Assembly (NCBI RefSeq): GCF_900170025.1
Contig: NZ_FWEX01000006.1
Location: 1,945,089 to 2,009,088, forward strand
DNA length: 64,000 nucleotides
Source of the DNA: Nitrospira sp. ND1
Lineage (GTDB): Bacteria > Nitrospirota > Nitrospiria > Nitrospirales > Nitrospiraceae
Direction: 5' to 3'
Shown here: one piece after another, positions 16,652 through 21,587 of the stretch
Position numbering within the stretch: the first letter of the stretch is position 1
How the letters are laid out: each line of letters starts with the position of its first letter
Made by a program: the position numbers and the translations under genes
Notes under the pieces: generated by a model
Told to the model about the DNA's origin: nothing
Seen by the model: the letters and a program-made list of their open reading frames with translations, nothing else
The model's database searches: none

Positions 16652-17683
16652 TCAGCGGCCGGACAATTCTTCAATGACTGCGGCGGCCAACAGCGGCACC
16701 ATGATCTCGTGATGGCCGGTCAATGCGTATCCCTTGCCGCCTTTCTGGGTTGGGCGGCGCACGACATTGGTCATGGGGCGATAATGCGTGAGGAAATCCA
16801 TATTGACCGTGGTGATGTTCGTCAACGGATGACCAAGGTTGCGTCCGAGCGAGACGGCTTTCAGGAAGACCTCCGGCAGGATCACGGCCGACCCCAGATT
16901 GAGATAGACCCCGCCTTCCATTTCGGAGACAACCGCTGCCAGGCGGCGAAAATCGAGCAGCGAACCCGCCCCGATCGCGGCGCCGTCGGCTGACGGATGC
17001 ATGTGAATGATGTCGGTCCCCACAGCCACGTGCACGGTGACGGGAAGGCCCAGCCGGAAGCCGGTGGCCAGCAGGCTGGTGGCGCGATGCGGAAACAGTT
17101 GTTTCCGTCGATGAATATAACTGCCGAGCGATTCGCCGAGCCCCTGGCCTTCTTTCATGCCCAGGGTGATCGCTTCATTGAGCATGCGGCCGGTTTCTTC
17201 CGCCATGCCGAATCGGCCGGAGTCGATCTCCGCGTCCACTTCCTCGGACGTGTGCCCCATAAACGCGAGTTCGAAGTCGTGGATGATCACGGCTCCGTTC
17301 ATGGCGAGAGCGGTGACGATGCCGCGTTCCATCAGATCGACAAGGAGCGGGCCGAGCCCGACTTTCACCACATGGGCGCCCATGCCGACGATCACCGGCT
17401 TGCCGTTGCGATGGGCTTTGGCAATGGCCTTCGCGACTTCGCGCAACGTCTTGACCGCCAGGATATCGGGGAGCGAATCGAGAAACCGGGCGAACGAGCG
17501 ACCCTTGGTCCAGACCTTGGCAAAGTTGGAGACCTGCACCTTGCTGTGTCGGCGCTGGAGCGGATAGGTCTTCAGGCGCGACGCATCGATCGGCCGGATG
17601 ATCGCGGGGGGCGTCGATGCTGCAGTGGGGCGCTTACGCCGGGTTGGCAAGAACGTGATCCTCAATGAGTTCGCAGAGCACAT
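16652..17683 (-). CDS. Conserved Gly-rich protein in the heptose cluster
   Basis: A 343-aa soluble protein that I do not recognise. Conserved-looking blocks include RNGKPVIVGMGAHVVKVGLG, IVTALAMNGAVIIHDFELAF, GTDIIHMHPSADGAAIGAG and EGGVYLNLGSAVILPEVFLKAV, which suggest an alpha/beta nucleotide- or sugar-binding fold. It lies between gmhA and the sprT-dinB-rfaE2 run, so a role in sugar-phosphate metabolism is possible but unproven. The ATG at 17683 lies 50 bp inside the gmhA gene. Only TTG codons are available as later starts before the conserved region (RLKTYPLQRRHSKVQV). Confidence 0.75.
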   Translation of the reverse strand: MCSANSLRITFLPTRRKRPTAASTPPAIIRPIDASRLKTYPLQRRHSKVQVSNFAKVWTKGRSFARFLDSLPDILAVKTLREVAKAIAKAHRNGKPVIVGMGAHVVKVGLGPLLVDLMERGIVTALAMNGAVIIHDFELAFMGHTSEEVDAEIDSGRFGMAEETGRMLNEAITLGMKEGQGLGESLGSYIHRRKQLFPHRATSLLATGFRLGLPVTVHVAVGTDIIHMHPSADGAAIGAGSLLDFRRLAAVVSEMEGGVYLNLGSAVILPEVFLKAVSLGRNLGHPLTNITTVNMDFLTHYRPMTNVVRRPTQKGGKGYALTGHHEIMVPLLAAAVIEELSGR

Positions 17684-18212
17684 GGCCCAGGGTGATGTGA
17701 CTTTCCTGAATGCGGGCGGTCAGCGTGGAAGGCACGACGAAGGCGTAGTCCACCATGCCGGCCAGTTTGCCGCCGGTTCCGCCGGTCCAGGCGATCGTGG
17801 TGAGGCCCAGGGCTTTGGCCGCCTCGACCCCTTTCAACACGTTGGGGGAGTTGCCGCTGGTGCTGATCGCAATCGCCACATCTCCACGCTGCCCGTGTGC
17901 CTGAACCTGACGGGCGAACAGCTCCTCGAAGCCGTAGTCGTTGGCGATGCAGGTGATGGCGGCAATATCCGTGGCGAGGGCAATGGCCGGCAACGGGGCA
18001 CGTTCGCGCTTATAGCGGCCGACAAACTCGGCGGCGATGTGCGCGGCATCGGTGGAGCTGCCGCCGTTGCCGAAGAGCAAGACTTTATGTCCGGCCTGAA
18101 ACGCGCCGCCGATGAGCTGTGCGACCTGTACGATTCGGTCGGCATGGTCCCGCGCGAAGCGCCGCTTGATCTCGGCGCTGTCGTCGAAGGCCTTGATGGC
18201 AAATTCTTTCAT
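17634..18212 (-). CDS. gmhA: Sedoheptulose 7-phosphate isomerase GmhA
   Basis: A 192-aa SIS-domain protein that catalyses the first step of ADP-heptose synthesis (sedoheptulose-7-P to heptose-7-P). Characteristic stretches are LLFGNGGSSTDAAHIAAEFVGRY, ISTSGNSPNVLKGVEAAKALG and the C-terminal IQESHITLGHVLCELIE, with Glu and His residues at the usual zinc-ligand positions. Length matches the family. It overlaps the downstream gene by 50 bp, suggesting coupled translation. Confidence 0.95.
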   Translation of the reverse strand: MKEFAIKAFDDSAEIKRRFARDHADRIVQVAQLIGGAFQAGHKVLLFGNGGSSTDAAHIAAEFVGRYKRERAPLPAIALATDIAAITCIANDYGFEELFARQVQAHGQRGDVAIAISTSGNSPNVLKGVEAAKALGLTTIAWTGGTGGKLAGMVDYAFVVPSTLTARIQESHITLGHVLCELIEDHVLANPA

Positions 18213-18266: not shown

Positions 18267-19220
18267 TTACTTTCCCGGAGATGTGGGCGAAGACCGTTTC
18301 GTGATCATGTTCATCGCCAGCGTCAGCATCGACCCGACATCCGAGACGTTGGCGGGGAGCACGAGGGTGTTGCTGGCTTTGGCCAGTTCCCCGAACTTGG
18401 TGATGTACTGCTCGGCGACGCGCAGCTGCACGGCTTCGTAGCCGCCCGGAATTTGCGTGGATTCGGCGACTTTGCGGAGTCCGTCTGCCGTGGCGCCGGC
18501 GATGGCCATAATCGCGGAGGCTGCGCCCTCGGCCTCGTTGATCTGCTGCTGTTTCTTCGCCTCGGAGGCCTTGATGACCTGCTGCTTCTCGCCTTCCGCC
18601 TGGTTGATGGCGGCGTCGCGTTCGCCCTCGGAGGTCAGAATCACCGCGCGTTTTTCCCGTTCGGCCCGCATTTGTTTTTCCATCGCGGCCAGCACGTCTT
18701 TCGGCGGCGTGATGTTCTTGATCTCGTACCGCAGCACCTTCACGCCCCAGGGTTCCGTCGCCTTGTCCAGCTCATTCACAACCTGGCTGTTGATATTGGT
18801 GCGCTCTTCGAAGGTGCGGTCGAGTTCGATTTTGCCGATCTCGCTCCGGAGGGCGGTCTGAGCCAGCTGCGTGATCGCAAAGCGATAGTCGCTGATGCCG
18901 TAGGAGGCTCGCTGCGGATCCAGCACCTTGGAATAGAGAATGCCGTCGACGCCGACCTGTACGTTGTCGCGCGTGATGCAGATCTGTTCGGGAATATCGA
19001 TGGCGGTTTCTTTCAGCGAGTGTTTGTACTGCACACTGTCGAGGAACGGCCACAGGATGTGGAACCCCGCGCCGAGTGTCCGTGAGTACCGGCCCAGCCG
19101 CTCGACGACGTAGGCGCTCTGTTGCGGCACGACACGCGCGGTTTTCGAGATGACGAGCAGGACGAGGCCTGCAAGAAAAATGACAACCCAGAGTCCGCCT
19201 GGCATTCCGCTATCCTCCAT
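18267..19220 (-). CDS. qmcA: SPFH/band 7 membrane protein (QmcA/paraslipin type)
   Basis: A 317-aa protein with one N-terminal TM helix (residues 7-25) and an SPFH domain (VVPQQSAYVVERLGRYSRTLGAGFHILWPF). A long Ala/Glu/Gln-rich coiled coil (about 185-245) precedes a conserved end (EQYITKFGELAKASNTLVLP). Such proteins oligomerise into membrane microdomain scaffolds. It follows nfeD by 12 bp on the same strand; stomatin-NfeD pairs are a well known conserved operon. Confidence 0.92.
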   Translation of the reverse strand: MEDSGMPGGLWVVIFLAGLVLLVISKTARVVPQQSAYVVERLGRYSRTLGAGFHILWPFLDSVQYKHSLKETAIDIPEQICITRDNVQVGVDGILYSKVLDPQRASYGISDYRFAITQLAQTALRSEIGKIELDRTFEERTNINSQVVNELDKATEPWGVKVLRYEIKNITPPKDVLAAMEKQMRAEREKRAVILTSEGERDAAINQAEGEKQQVIKASEAKKQQQINEAEGAASAIMAIAGATADGLRKVAESTQIPGGYEAVQLRVAEQYITKFGELAKASNTLVLPANVSDVGSMLTLAMNMITKRSSPTSPGK

Positions 19221-19232
19221 GATGGTGCGACC

Positions 19233-19667
19233 TCATTCAGGTTTGATCCACAGGGTGATGCCGTCTACGCGATCCACGAGGCTGCGTTGTCCTTTGAGCA
19301 GCGGCTTGTCGCCGGCGTTGTGCGCATTCCAGGTGCTGCCCCGGCATTCCGCCTTGCCCGTGGCGCCGGGAGGAAGGTCGTCCAGGACGATGGCGGTTTC
19401 GCCGCCCATGGTATCGACCGATGAGACGTTGCCCCGGTCGGCCGTCATGAGACGGCGGAGCGGGGGACGAAGGATGACGAGGGAAGCGACCGAGAAGACC
19501 GAAAACAGGAGCCAGGACATCCATTCACTGTGAATCATGCCCAGGCCGACCAGCGCGCCGACAACCAGCGCCCCGATACCGAAGAACAACATGTAAAACC
19601 CGCCGGGTGTGACGATTTCGCTGCCGAGCAGAAACAGTCCCAGAAAGGCCCAGAGCCACCAGGTCAT
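19233..19667 (-). CDS. nfeD: NfeD family membrane protein
   Basis: A 144-aa short NfeD without the protease domain. Two hydrophobic segments (residues 1-42) and a third near 50-68 precede a soluble OB-fold beta-barrel domain (GETAIVLDDLPPGATGKAECRGSTWNAHN). It probably partners the adjacent SPFH protein. It carries its own near-consensus promoter upstream and the start has GAGGAGGTGCG directly before it. Confidence 0.88.
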   Translation of the reverse strand: MTWWLWAFLGLFLLGSEIVTPGGFYMLFFGIGALVVGALVGLGMIHSEWMSWLLFSVFSVASLVILRPPLRRLMTADRGNVSSVDTMGGETAIVLDDLPPGATGKAECRGSTWNAHNAGDKPLLKGQRSLVDRVDGITLWIKPE

Positions 19668-19772: not shown

Positions 19773-19801
19773 TTGAAGCAGCCGGAGTGCAGTGGTATAG
19801 T
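19773..19801 (+). promoter_or_regulatory. Putative promoter of CARF gene (leaderless)
   Basis: TTGAAG (19773-19778), a 17-bp spacer and TATAGT (19796-19801) end 8 bp before the ATG at 19810. Transcription would start at or within two bases of the start codon. No Shine-Dalgarno sequence is present. Confidence 0.55.
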
Positions 19802-19809
19802 CCGCGGTC

Positions 19810-21066
19810 ATGCCTGCGGATACTCCTGTCAAAGCGCTCATCCTCGCCTTCACCGACGCGCCGTCGCTCGCCGCGTATGTGATCAACCGGCTGCAGCCGG
19901 AATTGCTCTGCTTTTTCGTGCCGGAATCGGCGAAGACGCTGGTTGAGGAGGCGGTGCAACCGCTCGTACAGCAGATGCCGAAGCGCTGGGACTGGGTGGT
20001 GACGCCCGATCCGGCCGATGTCATTGCCTGTCATCAGGCCCTGTCACGATCTATTCACGACCTCTTTCGAAATTGGGCCGTGCAGGTGGGCGAGGTGGTG
20101 GTCGATTTGACCGGAGCGACTCCCGCCATGGCCGCGGCGCTGGCGACGGTGAGCCAACCCTGGACGTCGCGAGTCATCAGTCTGGTCGATGCGGAGGGCC
20201 GCGAAGAGGGTGAGGCGATCGCGATCGGCGGGTTGGCCAAGTATTGGCTGCAAGGCAATCCCTGGGATGAGTCGGCGGTCGTGGTGCGCCGTGAGGCCAG
20301 CGACGCCTTTAATCATGGTTCATTCAGGGCCGCAGCCACCCTGTTTCATACGCTGGAAGCTCGCGTGAGCGGGGGACAGAAACCCCTGTATCGTGCCTTG
20401 GGCGAATTGGCGTTGGGGTACGGGTTGTGGGAGCAGTTTCACTACCGCCAGGCATGGGACAAGCTGAAGACCTCGTTGAAGGCGCTCGATATGGCGTCGC
20501 TCTGGGGCGGGCCGCCGGGGTTAAAGGCGCTCCTGCCGTTCATTAAAGCCAATAACGGATTTTTGGAAAAGCTGGTACTGGATCCCGCCGACGTGAAGGA
20601 AGGGGTAGTGCTCGATCTGCTCGCGCATGCCCATCGTCGTGCCCACGTGGACCATGACCATGAGCGGGCCATGGTGGCGCTCGTGCGCGCAATGGAAGCC
20701 TGCGCCCAGCGGCAACTGTTCAAACAGTACAAGATCAAGACCTGGGATGTGCAGCCGGAGCAATTGCCTGACGCGATGCGCGACACCTGCCGCACCTGTT
20801 ACCTCGATGATGTGGACGGGAAGTATAAGCTCCCATTGCAAAGCCAGTTCCGGGCCCTGGCCGGTCTTGGCGATCAAATGGGGCAGGCCTTTCTTCGCGA
20901 TTGGCCCAAGATGAAGCCGCTGCTCGACGCCGCCAACCATGCGGTGTTGGGCCACGGGTTTGAGGCCATCAAATCCGAGCGGGTGCAGCAACTGTCCGAT
21001 GTGGTCATGAAACTCACGGGCGTGAACGAGTCCTCGTTGCCGAAGTTTCCGGTTCTCAATCTCTAG
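19810..21066 (+). CDS. Orphan CARF/Csm6-like protein (TIGR02710-like)
   Basis: A 418-aa protein whose layout matches the TIGR02710 CRISPR-associated group. An N-terminal Rossmann-like CARF domain (about 8-150) has the loop VVDLTGATPAMAAA (residues 97-110), where CARF proteins carry the ligand-binding DxTGGTK-type motif. A middle helical part includes LLAHAHRRAHVDHDHERAMVALVRAME, followed by a C-terminal HEPN-like segment ending ANHAVLGHGFEAI. In active Csm6/Csx1 relatives this end reads RN-x5-H; here Arg is Ala375 while His382 stays, so RNase activity may be lost. CARF domains bind cyclic oligoadenylates. No CRISPR array or cas gene is in the window. Transcription appears leaderless. Confidence 0.65.
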   Translation: MPADTPVKALILAFTDAPSLAAYVINRLQPELLCFFVPESAKTLVEEAVQPLVQQMPKRWDWVVTPDPADVIACHQALSRSIHDLFRNWAVQVGEVVVDLTGATPAMAAALATVSQPWTSRVISLVDAEGREEGEAIAIGGLAKYWLQGNPWDESAVVVRREASDAFNHGSFRAAATLFHTLEARVSGGQKPLYRALGELALGYGLWEQFHYRQAWDKLKTSLKALDMASLWGGPPGLKALLPFIKANNGFLEKLVLDPADVKEGVVLDLLAHAHRRAHVDHDHERAMVALVRAMEACAQRQLFKQYKIKTWDVQPEQLPDAMRDTCRTCYLDDVDGKYKLPLQSQFRALAGLGDQMGQAFLRDWPKMKPLLDAANHAVLGHGFEAIKSERVQQLSDVVMKLTGVNESSLPKFPVLNL

Positions 21067-21072
21067 CCGACG

Positions 21073-21474
21073 ATGGAGATTCGCATTTACTACGAGGACA
21101 CCGATTGCGGCGGGGTGGTGTACTACGCCAACTATCTGAAGTATTTCGAGCGGGCGAGGACGCAGTATCTCGAAGAGCGAGGCCTCTCGGTTGCAGAGTT
21201 ACGGGACGGCGGGACGCAGTTTATGGTCGTGCATGCAGAACTGGACTATCGGTCACCTGCCCGCTATGGTGACACCTTAACCATCGACACGAACCTCGCG
21301 GCGGTGGGCCAGGCTTCTCTCACCTTTGCCCATGTCATGAGAGAACGGACGAGCGGGCGCGTGGTGGTCGAAGGCTCGGCCAAGTTGGTGACGGTGGATG
21401 ACAACTTGAAAGTAAAGCGACTCGACAAACCCACCTTGGCTGCGTTACAAGGACCTCCAGAGACGAGGAGCTAA
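21073..21474 (+). CDS. YbgC-type acyl-CoA thioesterase
   Basis: A 133-aa hotdog-fold thioesterase. The 4-hydroxybenzoyl-CoA thioesterase signature YYEDTDCGGVVYYANYLKYFERART contains the catalytic Asp. YbgC proteins associate with the Tol-Pal envelope system in proteobacteria, but no tol gene is visible here. It starts 6 bp after the CARF gene and its stop overlaps the next start by one base. Confidence 0.92.
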   Translation: MEIRIYYEDTDCGGVVYYANYLKYFERARTQYLEERGLSVAELRDGGTQFMVVHAELDYRSPARYGDTLTIDTNLAAVGQASLTFAHVMRERTSGRVVVEGSAKLVTVDDNLKVKRLDKPTLAALQGPPETRS

Positions 21475-21587
21475 TGGACAAACTCGGTACATGGCTGGCG
21501 GTGACGGGCGTGGCGATCGGTTTCGTCGTCCTCGCCTGGTTGCTCTTTTCCGATAATCCCGCCGACAAGAAAAAGAAGAAACCGTAA
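21474..21587 (+). CDS. Small single-TM membrane protein (37 aa)
   Basis: A 37-aa open frame whose ATG shares its A with the preceding TAA stop. A GAGGAG ribosome site lies 4-5 bases upstream, inside the end of the thioesterase gene. It encodes one hydrophobic helix (residues 6-24, WLAVTGVAIGFVVLAWLLF) followed by a polar DNPAD and a Lys-rich tail (KKKKKP), the expected topology of a small inner-membrane protein with a cytoplasmic basic end. Function unknown. Confidence 0.7.
   Translation: MDKLGTWLAVTGVAIGFVVLAWLLFSDNPADKKKKKP

Follow-up and report, generated by a model that had tools for sequence, protein, structure and literature searches.

A Csm6-derived protein of Nitrospira with both functional sites altered and a likely housekeeping role outside CRISPR

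The 64-kb stretch of the Nitrospira sp. ND1 genome analysed here (the window) encodes a protein which, judged from its alignment, is of Csm6 family descent, yet lacks both defining sites of this family, the Lys of the G-T-K loop in the CARF domain and the Arg of the R-X4-6-H motif in the HEPN domain. Likely, it is a domesticated, doubly inactivated Csm6 that was exapted as a non-CRISPR housekeeping protein. With less assurance we lean to a fuller version: an ancillary effector of type III systems was fully domesticated into the core genome of the nitrite-oxidising Nitrospirales, dropped sensor and RNase along a single ancestral branch, and gained, next to a thioesterase gene, a new conserved surface with a housekeeping function, which might be the binding of RNA, of a protein or of a new ligand. 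The detail that it acts as an RNA or protein scaffold is, taken alone, perhaps correct but somewhat more doubtful.

Family, fold and the two altered sites

The limits of the open reading frame were confirmed exactly (Table 1). Its product scores 129.7 bits against the TIGR02710 profile (cut-off 83.9), 71.2 bits against the Csm6 HEPN domain PF09670 (cut-off 27) and 43.7 bits against the Csm6 6H domain PF22205 (cut-off 27.6). The PADLOC model PDLC01812, 'CARF1--CARF_HEPN', matches it end to end (1-418) with 826.8 bits. Both the fold search and the AlphaFold2 model of the monomer (pLDDT 83.7, pTM 0.61; low confidence at residues 310-340 and 380-390) reveal a Rossmann-fold CARF domain, then 6H and HEPN. 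The closest PDB structure to the model is Thermus Csm6 (Foldseek E 5e-13; VIA Z 20.8 over 380 residues with an rmsd of 11.8, which is spread along the entire chain). Taken by themselves, the CARF part superposes on Can2 (rmsd 2.6, 125 residues) and the 6H-HEPN part on S. epidermidis Csm6 (rmsd 4.4, 223 residues), both by VIA. Stand-alone ring nucleases and other CARF proteins score below Csm6 in the fold searches, a ranking that excludes nothing. From the profile matches and the structural fits it follows that the predicted protein descends from the Csm6 group and has the layout CARF-6H-HEPN. The homology proposed in the initial annotation is thereby confirmed, and neither of the outcomes that could have spoken against the proposal, a missing CARF match or an active Arg at another place in the motif, was obtained. 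The protein is the single TIGR02710 match in its genome; the best named relative among those listed, from Candidatus Nitrospira defluvii, shares 98% identity.

Table 1. Features of the gene and its surroundings, in window positions
Feature	Position	Strand	Basis or remark
Pseudo-Csm6, CARF-6H-HEPN protein, 418 aa	19810..21066	+	ORF; TIGR02710, Pfam and PADLOC profiles; predicted structure
CARF domain, about residues 6-153	19825..20268	+	VIA matches, e.g., 8q41_A, Z 14.8, rmsd 2.6 over 125 residues
Degenerate CARF loop DLTGATPAMAAA, residues 99-110	20104..20139	+	Pro105 (20122-20124) in place of the cOA-binding Lys
Csm6 6H domain, residues 160-248	20287..20553	+	PF22205; richest in newly invariant positions
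HEPN domain, residues 267-403	20608..21018	+	PF09670
Broken HEPN motif A375-NHAVLG-H382-G383	20932..20958	+	Alignment; R-X4-6-H without Arg
Promoter-like TTGAAG-17-TATAGT, TG before the -10	19773..19801	+	Ends 8 nt before ATG; predicted leaderless mRNA
YbgC/FadM-type acyl-CoA thioesterase, predicted operon partner	21073..21474	+	TIGR00051, 97.2 bits (cut-off 68.7)
37-aa peptide, one hydrophobic stretch, lysine-rich tail	21474..21587	+	Start overlaps the thioesterase stop (TAATG)
NfeD-like gene, divergent, not in all relatives	19233..19667	-	PF01957
SPFH/band-7 gene	18267..19220	-	PF01145
SIS-domain gene	17634..18212	-	PF13580

Functional residues have been probed in Thermus Csm6. According to PMC10897365, K137A eliminates all cA4 binding and RNase activity, T59A/S60A eliminates ring cleavage and RNase activity, and R415A, N416A or H422A abolishes RNase activity. 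In the alignment, K137 corresponds to P105, R415 to A375 and S60 to residue 17. The CARF loop DLTGATPAMAAA, initially taken as sound, is a degenerate version of D-x-T-G-G-T-K-x-M with Pro105 for Lys. The HEPN motif reads A375-NHAVLG-H382, with Ala375 in place of the Arg, as had been stated.

Orthologues were defined by a score of at least 540 bits against a profile built from 18 clade members (A1), with no motif criterion; ORFs below 330 aa (among them the contig-edge fragments L034, L036-L039 and L041) and identical ORFs were left out of the counts. In the 108 distinct orthologues, which include two frameshifted loci and one alignment gap at several CARF positions, the column of the HEPN Arg is occupied by Ala (103), Val (2), Ser (2) or Thr (1) and that of the CARF Lys by Pro (88), Ala (12), Ser (4), Thr (2) or Val (2); Arg and Lys, respectively, are found in 0/108. 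A further 19 orthologue rows (16 new sequences and three repeats of counted ones; two rows are from family f3) have Ala at the HEPN column in 19/19 and Lys at the CARF column in 0/19. The comparison set, 25 other TIGR02710-type rows of which genomes from the same phylum supplied 19 and named plasmids six, was cleared of a truncated orthologue (L040). It has the CARF Lys in 24/25 and the HEPN Arg in 24/25, two deviating plasmid rows being retained: one with Thr for Lys (L178), the other, from a Rhodothermus plasmid, without aligned Arg and His (L180). By this count the HEPN defect is lineage-wide, a point that the initial annotation had raised for checking. Sensing of cyclic oligoadenylates (cOA) appears equally doubtful as RNA cutting, since the residue that binds cA4 in Thermus is Pro105 here and Lys is found in no orthologue row. 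The earlier suggestion that the protein may sense cOA from a distant type III system is also at odds with its genome, which has no Cas10 match and just this one TIGR02710 gene.

Residue 17, the equivalent of S60, is Ser or Thr in 22/25 other rows versus 1/108 orthologues, and the T81 position is Ser in 10/108. The equivalents of S60, T81 and K137 are altered in most or all orthologues; ring nucleases elsewhere use other residues. Much of the loop surrounding the lost Lys is retained in the clade (D99, T/S101, T104, M107), and family f2 displays the variants T-M-A-T-S, S-R-A-T-P and T-S-A-S-P. The CARF pocket may bind another ligand. The 'mobile loop' of the Thermus enzyme (Y167, R172, R173, E179) was kept out of the evidence because the alignment is uncertain in this region. 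In the HEPN domain, Asn376 (N416) is retained in 72/108 and His382 (H422) in 99/108 orthologues, and through these two residues the old HEPN face may still be of some use. A substitute for the missing Arg near the motif was considered and rejected: K388 and R391 are newly near-invariant, but some f2 members have Q, Y, N, G or A instead of His382 (the one R in this column stems from the frameshifted L028). Clade-wide HEPN chemistry via this His is therefore unlikely. In single lineages, substitute chemistry may exist.

Origin, retention and constraint

In a 75-row tree, the 50 inactive rows sampled all fall to the same side of one branch (SH-aLRT 100). The stem of the inactive clade is long, 1.41 changes per column, and the clade adjoins, again with support 100, four proteins of family f19 whose motifs are intact. 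The tree was built by a quick method, with SH-aLRT only and no outgroup, and its deeper order is unsure because several intact rows have long branches; the coded families were placed in the Nitrospirales by way of named loci. This topology suggests that both sites were inactivated once, before the clade within the Nitrospirales radiated.

Family f19 belongs to the same phylum. Five of its 10 genomes, and three of the four good ones, contain the gene, and its homologues retain a TGGTK/TCGTK loop and RN-x5-H. At L071 the intact-motif gene sits between NAD kinase and rho. A scan of L071-L074 and L076 disclosed no CRISPR-like array, Cas10 is matched above cut-off in 4/5 carriers, and a -10-like element directly precedes the ATG in both f19 upstreams looked at. 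With a solitary intact-motif Csm6-like gene and Cas10 elsewhere in the genome, L071 and L072 are candidates for type III signalling in trans.

Among 117 order genomes, taken in one draw, 101 have the orthologue: 56/57 in f1, the family of the window, 43/48 in f2, 2/8 in f3 and 0/4 in f40. The gene is not essential across the whole order, as it is absent from 1/57, 5/48, 6/8 and 4/4, respectively. One genome without it (G133) lacks the SIS neighbour too; in two others (G242, G282) neither the CARF gene nor the thioesterase adjoins SIS. Whole-gene dN/dS against eight relatives is 0.03-0.11, the mark of purifying selection. Pseudogene decay was set aside because of this ratio and the conservation described below, despite frameshifts at L024 (also G018) and L028, which are either real or assembly errors. 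Near-universal and usually single-copy retention suggests that the protein was taken over for an everyday job. An orthologue labelled 'uncultured Nitrosospira' (L019, CAADGK010000056.1) falls inside the Nitrospiraceae part of the tree and probably derives from a mislabelled Nitrospira MAG.

Cas10 yielded matches in 11 of the same 117 genomes, eight above cut-off and six with Cas10-sized frames of 857-1028 aa (G312, G268, G177, G216, G197, G125); the remaining matches were judged non-Cas10 from their scores and frame lengths. The inactive orthologue is present in all six as well. Four of them (G268, G216, G125, G312) have, in addition, a second TIGR02710 copy of the intact type; such second genes in Cas10-bearing genomes of the order are L195:7876-9162, L077, L082 and L084. 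The intact copies share 28-29% (L077, L081, L082) or 24% (L084) identity with the window protein, and most carriers have no second TIGR02710 copy. In the window's own genome (G000), a search for Cas10 (PF22335) gave no match, and a type III partner within this genome was rejected on this ground. Cas1, which is found in 44/117 order genomes including this one, lies on contig 6 at 362 kb, about 1.6 Mb from the window, and no direct repeats with CRISPR spacing were found in the 64 kb. By these searches, which covered Cas10 and Cas1 in the whole genome and repeats in the window, the locus is the orphan that it was first said to be.

Another source of cyclic nucleotides has been considered. The same genome has, on contig 6 at 1543818-1548666 (L188, L189, L192), two SMODS (CD-NTase) cyclase domains scoring 87.8 and 34.5 bits, which mark a probable CBASS-type locus about 0.4 Mb from the window. 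SMODS cyclases occur in only 12/117 order genomes, and a CBASS messenger as the ligand that explains the conservation was rejected for this reason, although the window's genome has such a cyclase.

Constraint is unevenly spread over the protein. Mean entropy within the clade is 1.35 for CARF, the most variable domain, 0.97 for 6H and 0.98 for HEPN; the intact rows yield 2.23, 2.49 and 2.09, with CARF not at the extreme. When proteins were compared in pairs, CARF was the part with the lowest similarity in each of three clade pairs. It was the most alike part in the intact pairs L071/L073, L071/L074, L078/L079 and L078/L080, not so in L077/L082 and L083/L168. The shift of constraint rests on such pairs, because by entropy CARF is not the best-conserved domain of the intact set. 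Across the clade, 87 positions are near-invariant (at least 61 of 63 non-redundant rows), and 60 of them are new, i.e., common to at most 12 of the 25 intact rows. Newly invariant are 27 of 106 residues in 6H, 19 of 144 in HEPN and 10 of 121 in CARF. This new set is enriched in Lys/Arg (13/60 versus 44/418, p 0.005, the p-values assuming independence of positions) and holds 8 of the 11 Trp; enrichment of Asp/Glu was not seen (9/60, p 0.39). Trp tends to be conserved in proteins generally; the Lys/Arg signal is no more than suggestive, and as a pointer to RNA binding it is weak evidence.

The locus and its predicted promoter

The thioesterase gene starts 6 nt past the stop codon of the CARF gene, and the gene of the 37-aa peptide overlaps the thioesterase stop, which agrees with the shared strand and spacing reported initially. 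The thioesterase is found downstream on the same strand in 77/81 relatives with enough downstream flank, the SIS gene divergently upstream in 70/81 with enough upstream flank, and the SPFH gene within 3.5 kb upstream in 42/81. The thioesterase follows the last CARF codon at a distance of at most 34 nt in 31/77 and of 381-558 nt in 21/77. In N. defluvii the gap contains a 118-aa ORF (L002:11311-11667), which we presume to resemble the four-helix S23/IVP type. That the thioesterase is linked to the CARF protein is a guess from the neighbourhood only.

Upstream stretches of relatives come exclusively from matches that start with residue 1; seven from f2 and f3 were inspected by eye. A -10-like TANNNT stands just before the start codon in 94/94 of them, and a search for Shine-Dalgarno-like motifs in the same 94 found none. 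After removal of duplicates, the -10-like element is seen in 89/89, ending 7-10 nt before the start codon, with TATANT in 87/89, a preceding TG in 81/89 and a -35-like hexamer (at least 4 of 6) in 67/89. In control upstreams TATANT is absent: thioesterase 0/88, SIS 0/61, SPFH 0/21, NfeD 0/56, ArgZ-like 0/35 and sprT 0/12. Since TATANT recurs in the relatives and is missing from these control genes of the locus, the CARF gene is predicted to have its own conserved, leaderless promoter. The apparently leaderless arrangement described in the initial annotation can stand as a prediction, because the same arrangement recurs in relatives. The looser TANNNT directly precedes the start codon of the SIS gene (window position 18212) in 61/61 upstreams; leaderless transcripts may be common here.

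Proposed history, alternatives and known systems

The ancestor would have been a CARF-HEPN ribonuclease, probably a stand-alone gene on the chromosome that answered a type III system in trans. Because f19 combines a solitary intact gene, no array seen and Cas10 in 4/5 carriers, we infer the following order of events: a stand-alone Csm6 with Cas10 in trans, loss of Cas10 in an ancestor of the Nitrospirales clade, and then loss of both sites. The cOA-binding Lys, the residues that help to place and cleave the ring and the catalytic Arg of HEPN would have been lost once. The fold would have been retained and the gene fixed as a near-universal, usually single-copy one with its own leaderless promoter, ahead of the thioesterase. 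The protein would most likely work without a cOA ligand and without catalysis; it would be made constitutively and presumably be a homodimer like Csm6. At a guess, it serves a housekeeping process in which RNA or another protein is bound by its newly invariant 6H-HEPN surface, rich in Lys, Arg and Trp. Recruitment to another role, one of the options first offered, is supported.

The main rival of this domesticated, inactive Csm6 is a retuned sensor: the remodelled CARF pocket would have a different nucleotide or metabolite as its ligand, and the HEPN half, itself dead, would relay the signal to a partner, perhaps the thioesterase, and not cut RNA. We consider it unlikely, if worth keeping in mind. 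The CARF fold and part of its loop (D99, T/S101, T104, M107) are conserved, and Asp at residue 17 in the ring-placing region (71/108) and Pro105 (88/108) are new preferences and not random drift. CARF, however, is the most variable domain of the clade and is poor in new invariants compared with 6H, and its loop varies freely in the sister family f2. Much less probable is a silent receptor or sink, which would still sense the cyclic oligoadenylates of type III systems and not cut RNA. Csm6 homology and the Cas10-sized frames in six order genomes would agree with it, but the cA4-binding Lys is missing from all 108 and all 19 orthologue rows, the window's genome has no Cas10 match, and a Cas10-sized frame in 6/117 genomes compares with the gene in 101/117.

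Two more ideas strike us as very improbable. The inactive protein might be a dominant-negative or buffering partner of an intact Csm6, mixed dimers limiting self-damage. The intact-type copy in four of the six Cas10-bearing genomes fits this idea, whereas most carriers are without a second copy and the intact copies are distant (24-29% identity). It might also be a functionless, decaying relic of a lost type III system, as the loss of both sites, the lack of Cas10 in most genomes and the two frameshifted loci could imply; the low dN/dS already contradicts this, and the 87 near-invariant positions in 63 rows and the conserved locus and promoter motif argue against it.

CARF-HEPN proteins are almost automatically interpreted as defence effectors. 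For the Nitrospira gene, annotation as 'CRISPR-associated signal protein' is to be expected, because NCBIfam and PADLOC models score it above or far above their thresholds; it is probably wrong. If the domesticated form is real, it would be a clear exaptation of an immune effector: a Csm6 stripped of sensor and effector in a single episode and afterwards retained as a conserved core gene. Nitrospira, important nitrite oxidisers, would have a new core gene. The individual steps can be tested, since there are genomes with the intact f19 homologue, others with only the inactive form and others again with the two together.

In the open-access literature, no description of an inactive Nitrospira Csm6, of its lost sites or of its core-gene status was found; the 2020 CARF classification tables (gkaa635) may list the protein. 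In PMC3710099, CARF nucleases are recorded as stand-alone genes and interpreted as nucleases, and RNA binding is proposed for HEPN families that lack the catalytic motif, MtlR among them. As there described, MtlR shares the motif-less HEPN with the window protein but is not a CARF protein. PADLOC has already catalogued a closely similar protein, which PDLC01812 matches over its full length; it is listed, however, as a CARF-HEPN defence protein, and the model is silent on the lost sites.

The TIGR02710/PF09670 proteins of plasmids (Thermus pTT27, Synechocystis, Rubrobacter, Thermomicrobium) belong to the family whose cut-off the window protein exceeds. They differ in having R-x-H in HEPN, a G-T-K loop (G-T-T in Rubrobacter) and adjoining cas genes. 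The gene with G-T-T, on a Rubrobacter radiotolerans plasmid (L178), lies between an annotated cas7d (type I-D) and cas6. On a Rhodothermus marinus plasmid (L180:1671-3203), a TIGR02710 protein with an intact CARF loop has no Arg and His in the aligned HEPN; independent loss or misalignment is possible.

The f19 homologue (L071-L074) is found in the adjoining clade and likewise has no CRISPR-like array in view and a -10-like element before the ATG, but both of its motifs are intact and Cas10 is present above cut-off in 4/5 carriers. Thermus thermophilus Csm6 (5FSH, 8JBB, 8JBC, 8JH1), the best PDB match by structure and sequence, has the same order of CARF, helical linker and HEPN. In contrast to it, the window protein has the equivalents of K137, S60 and R415 altered and is encoded outside any type III operon.
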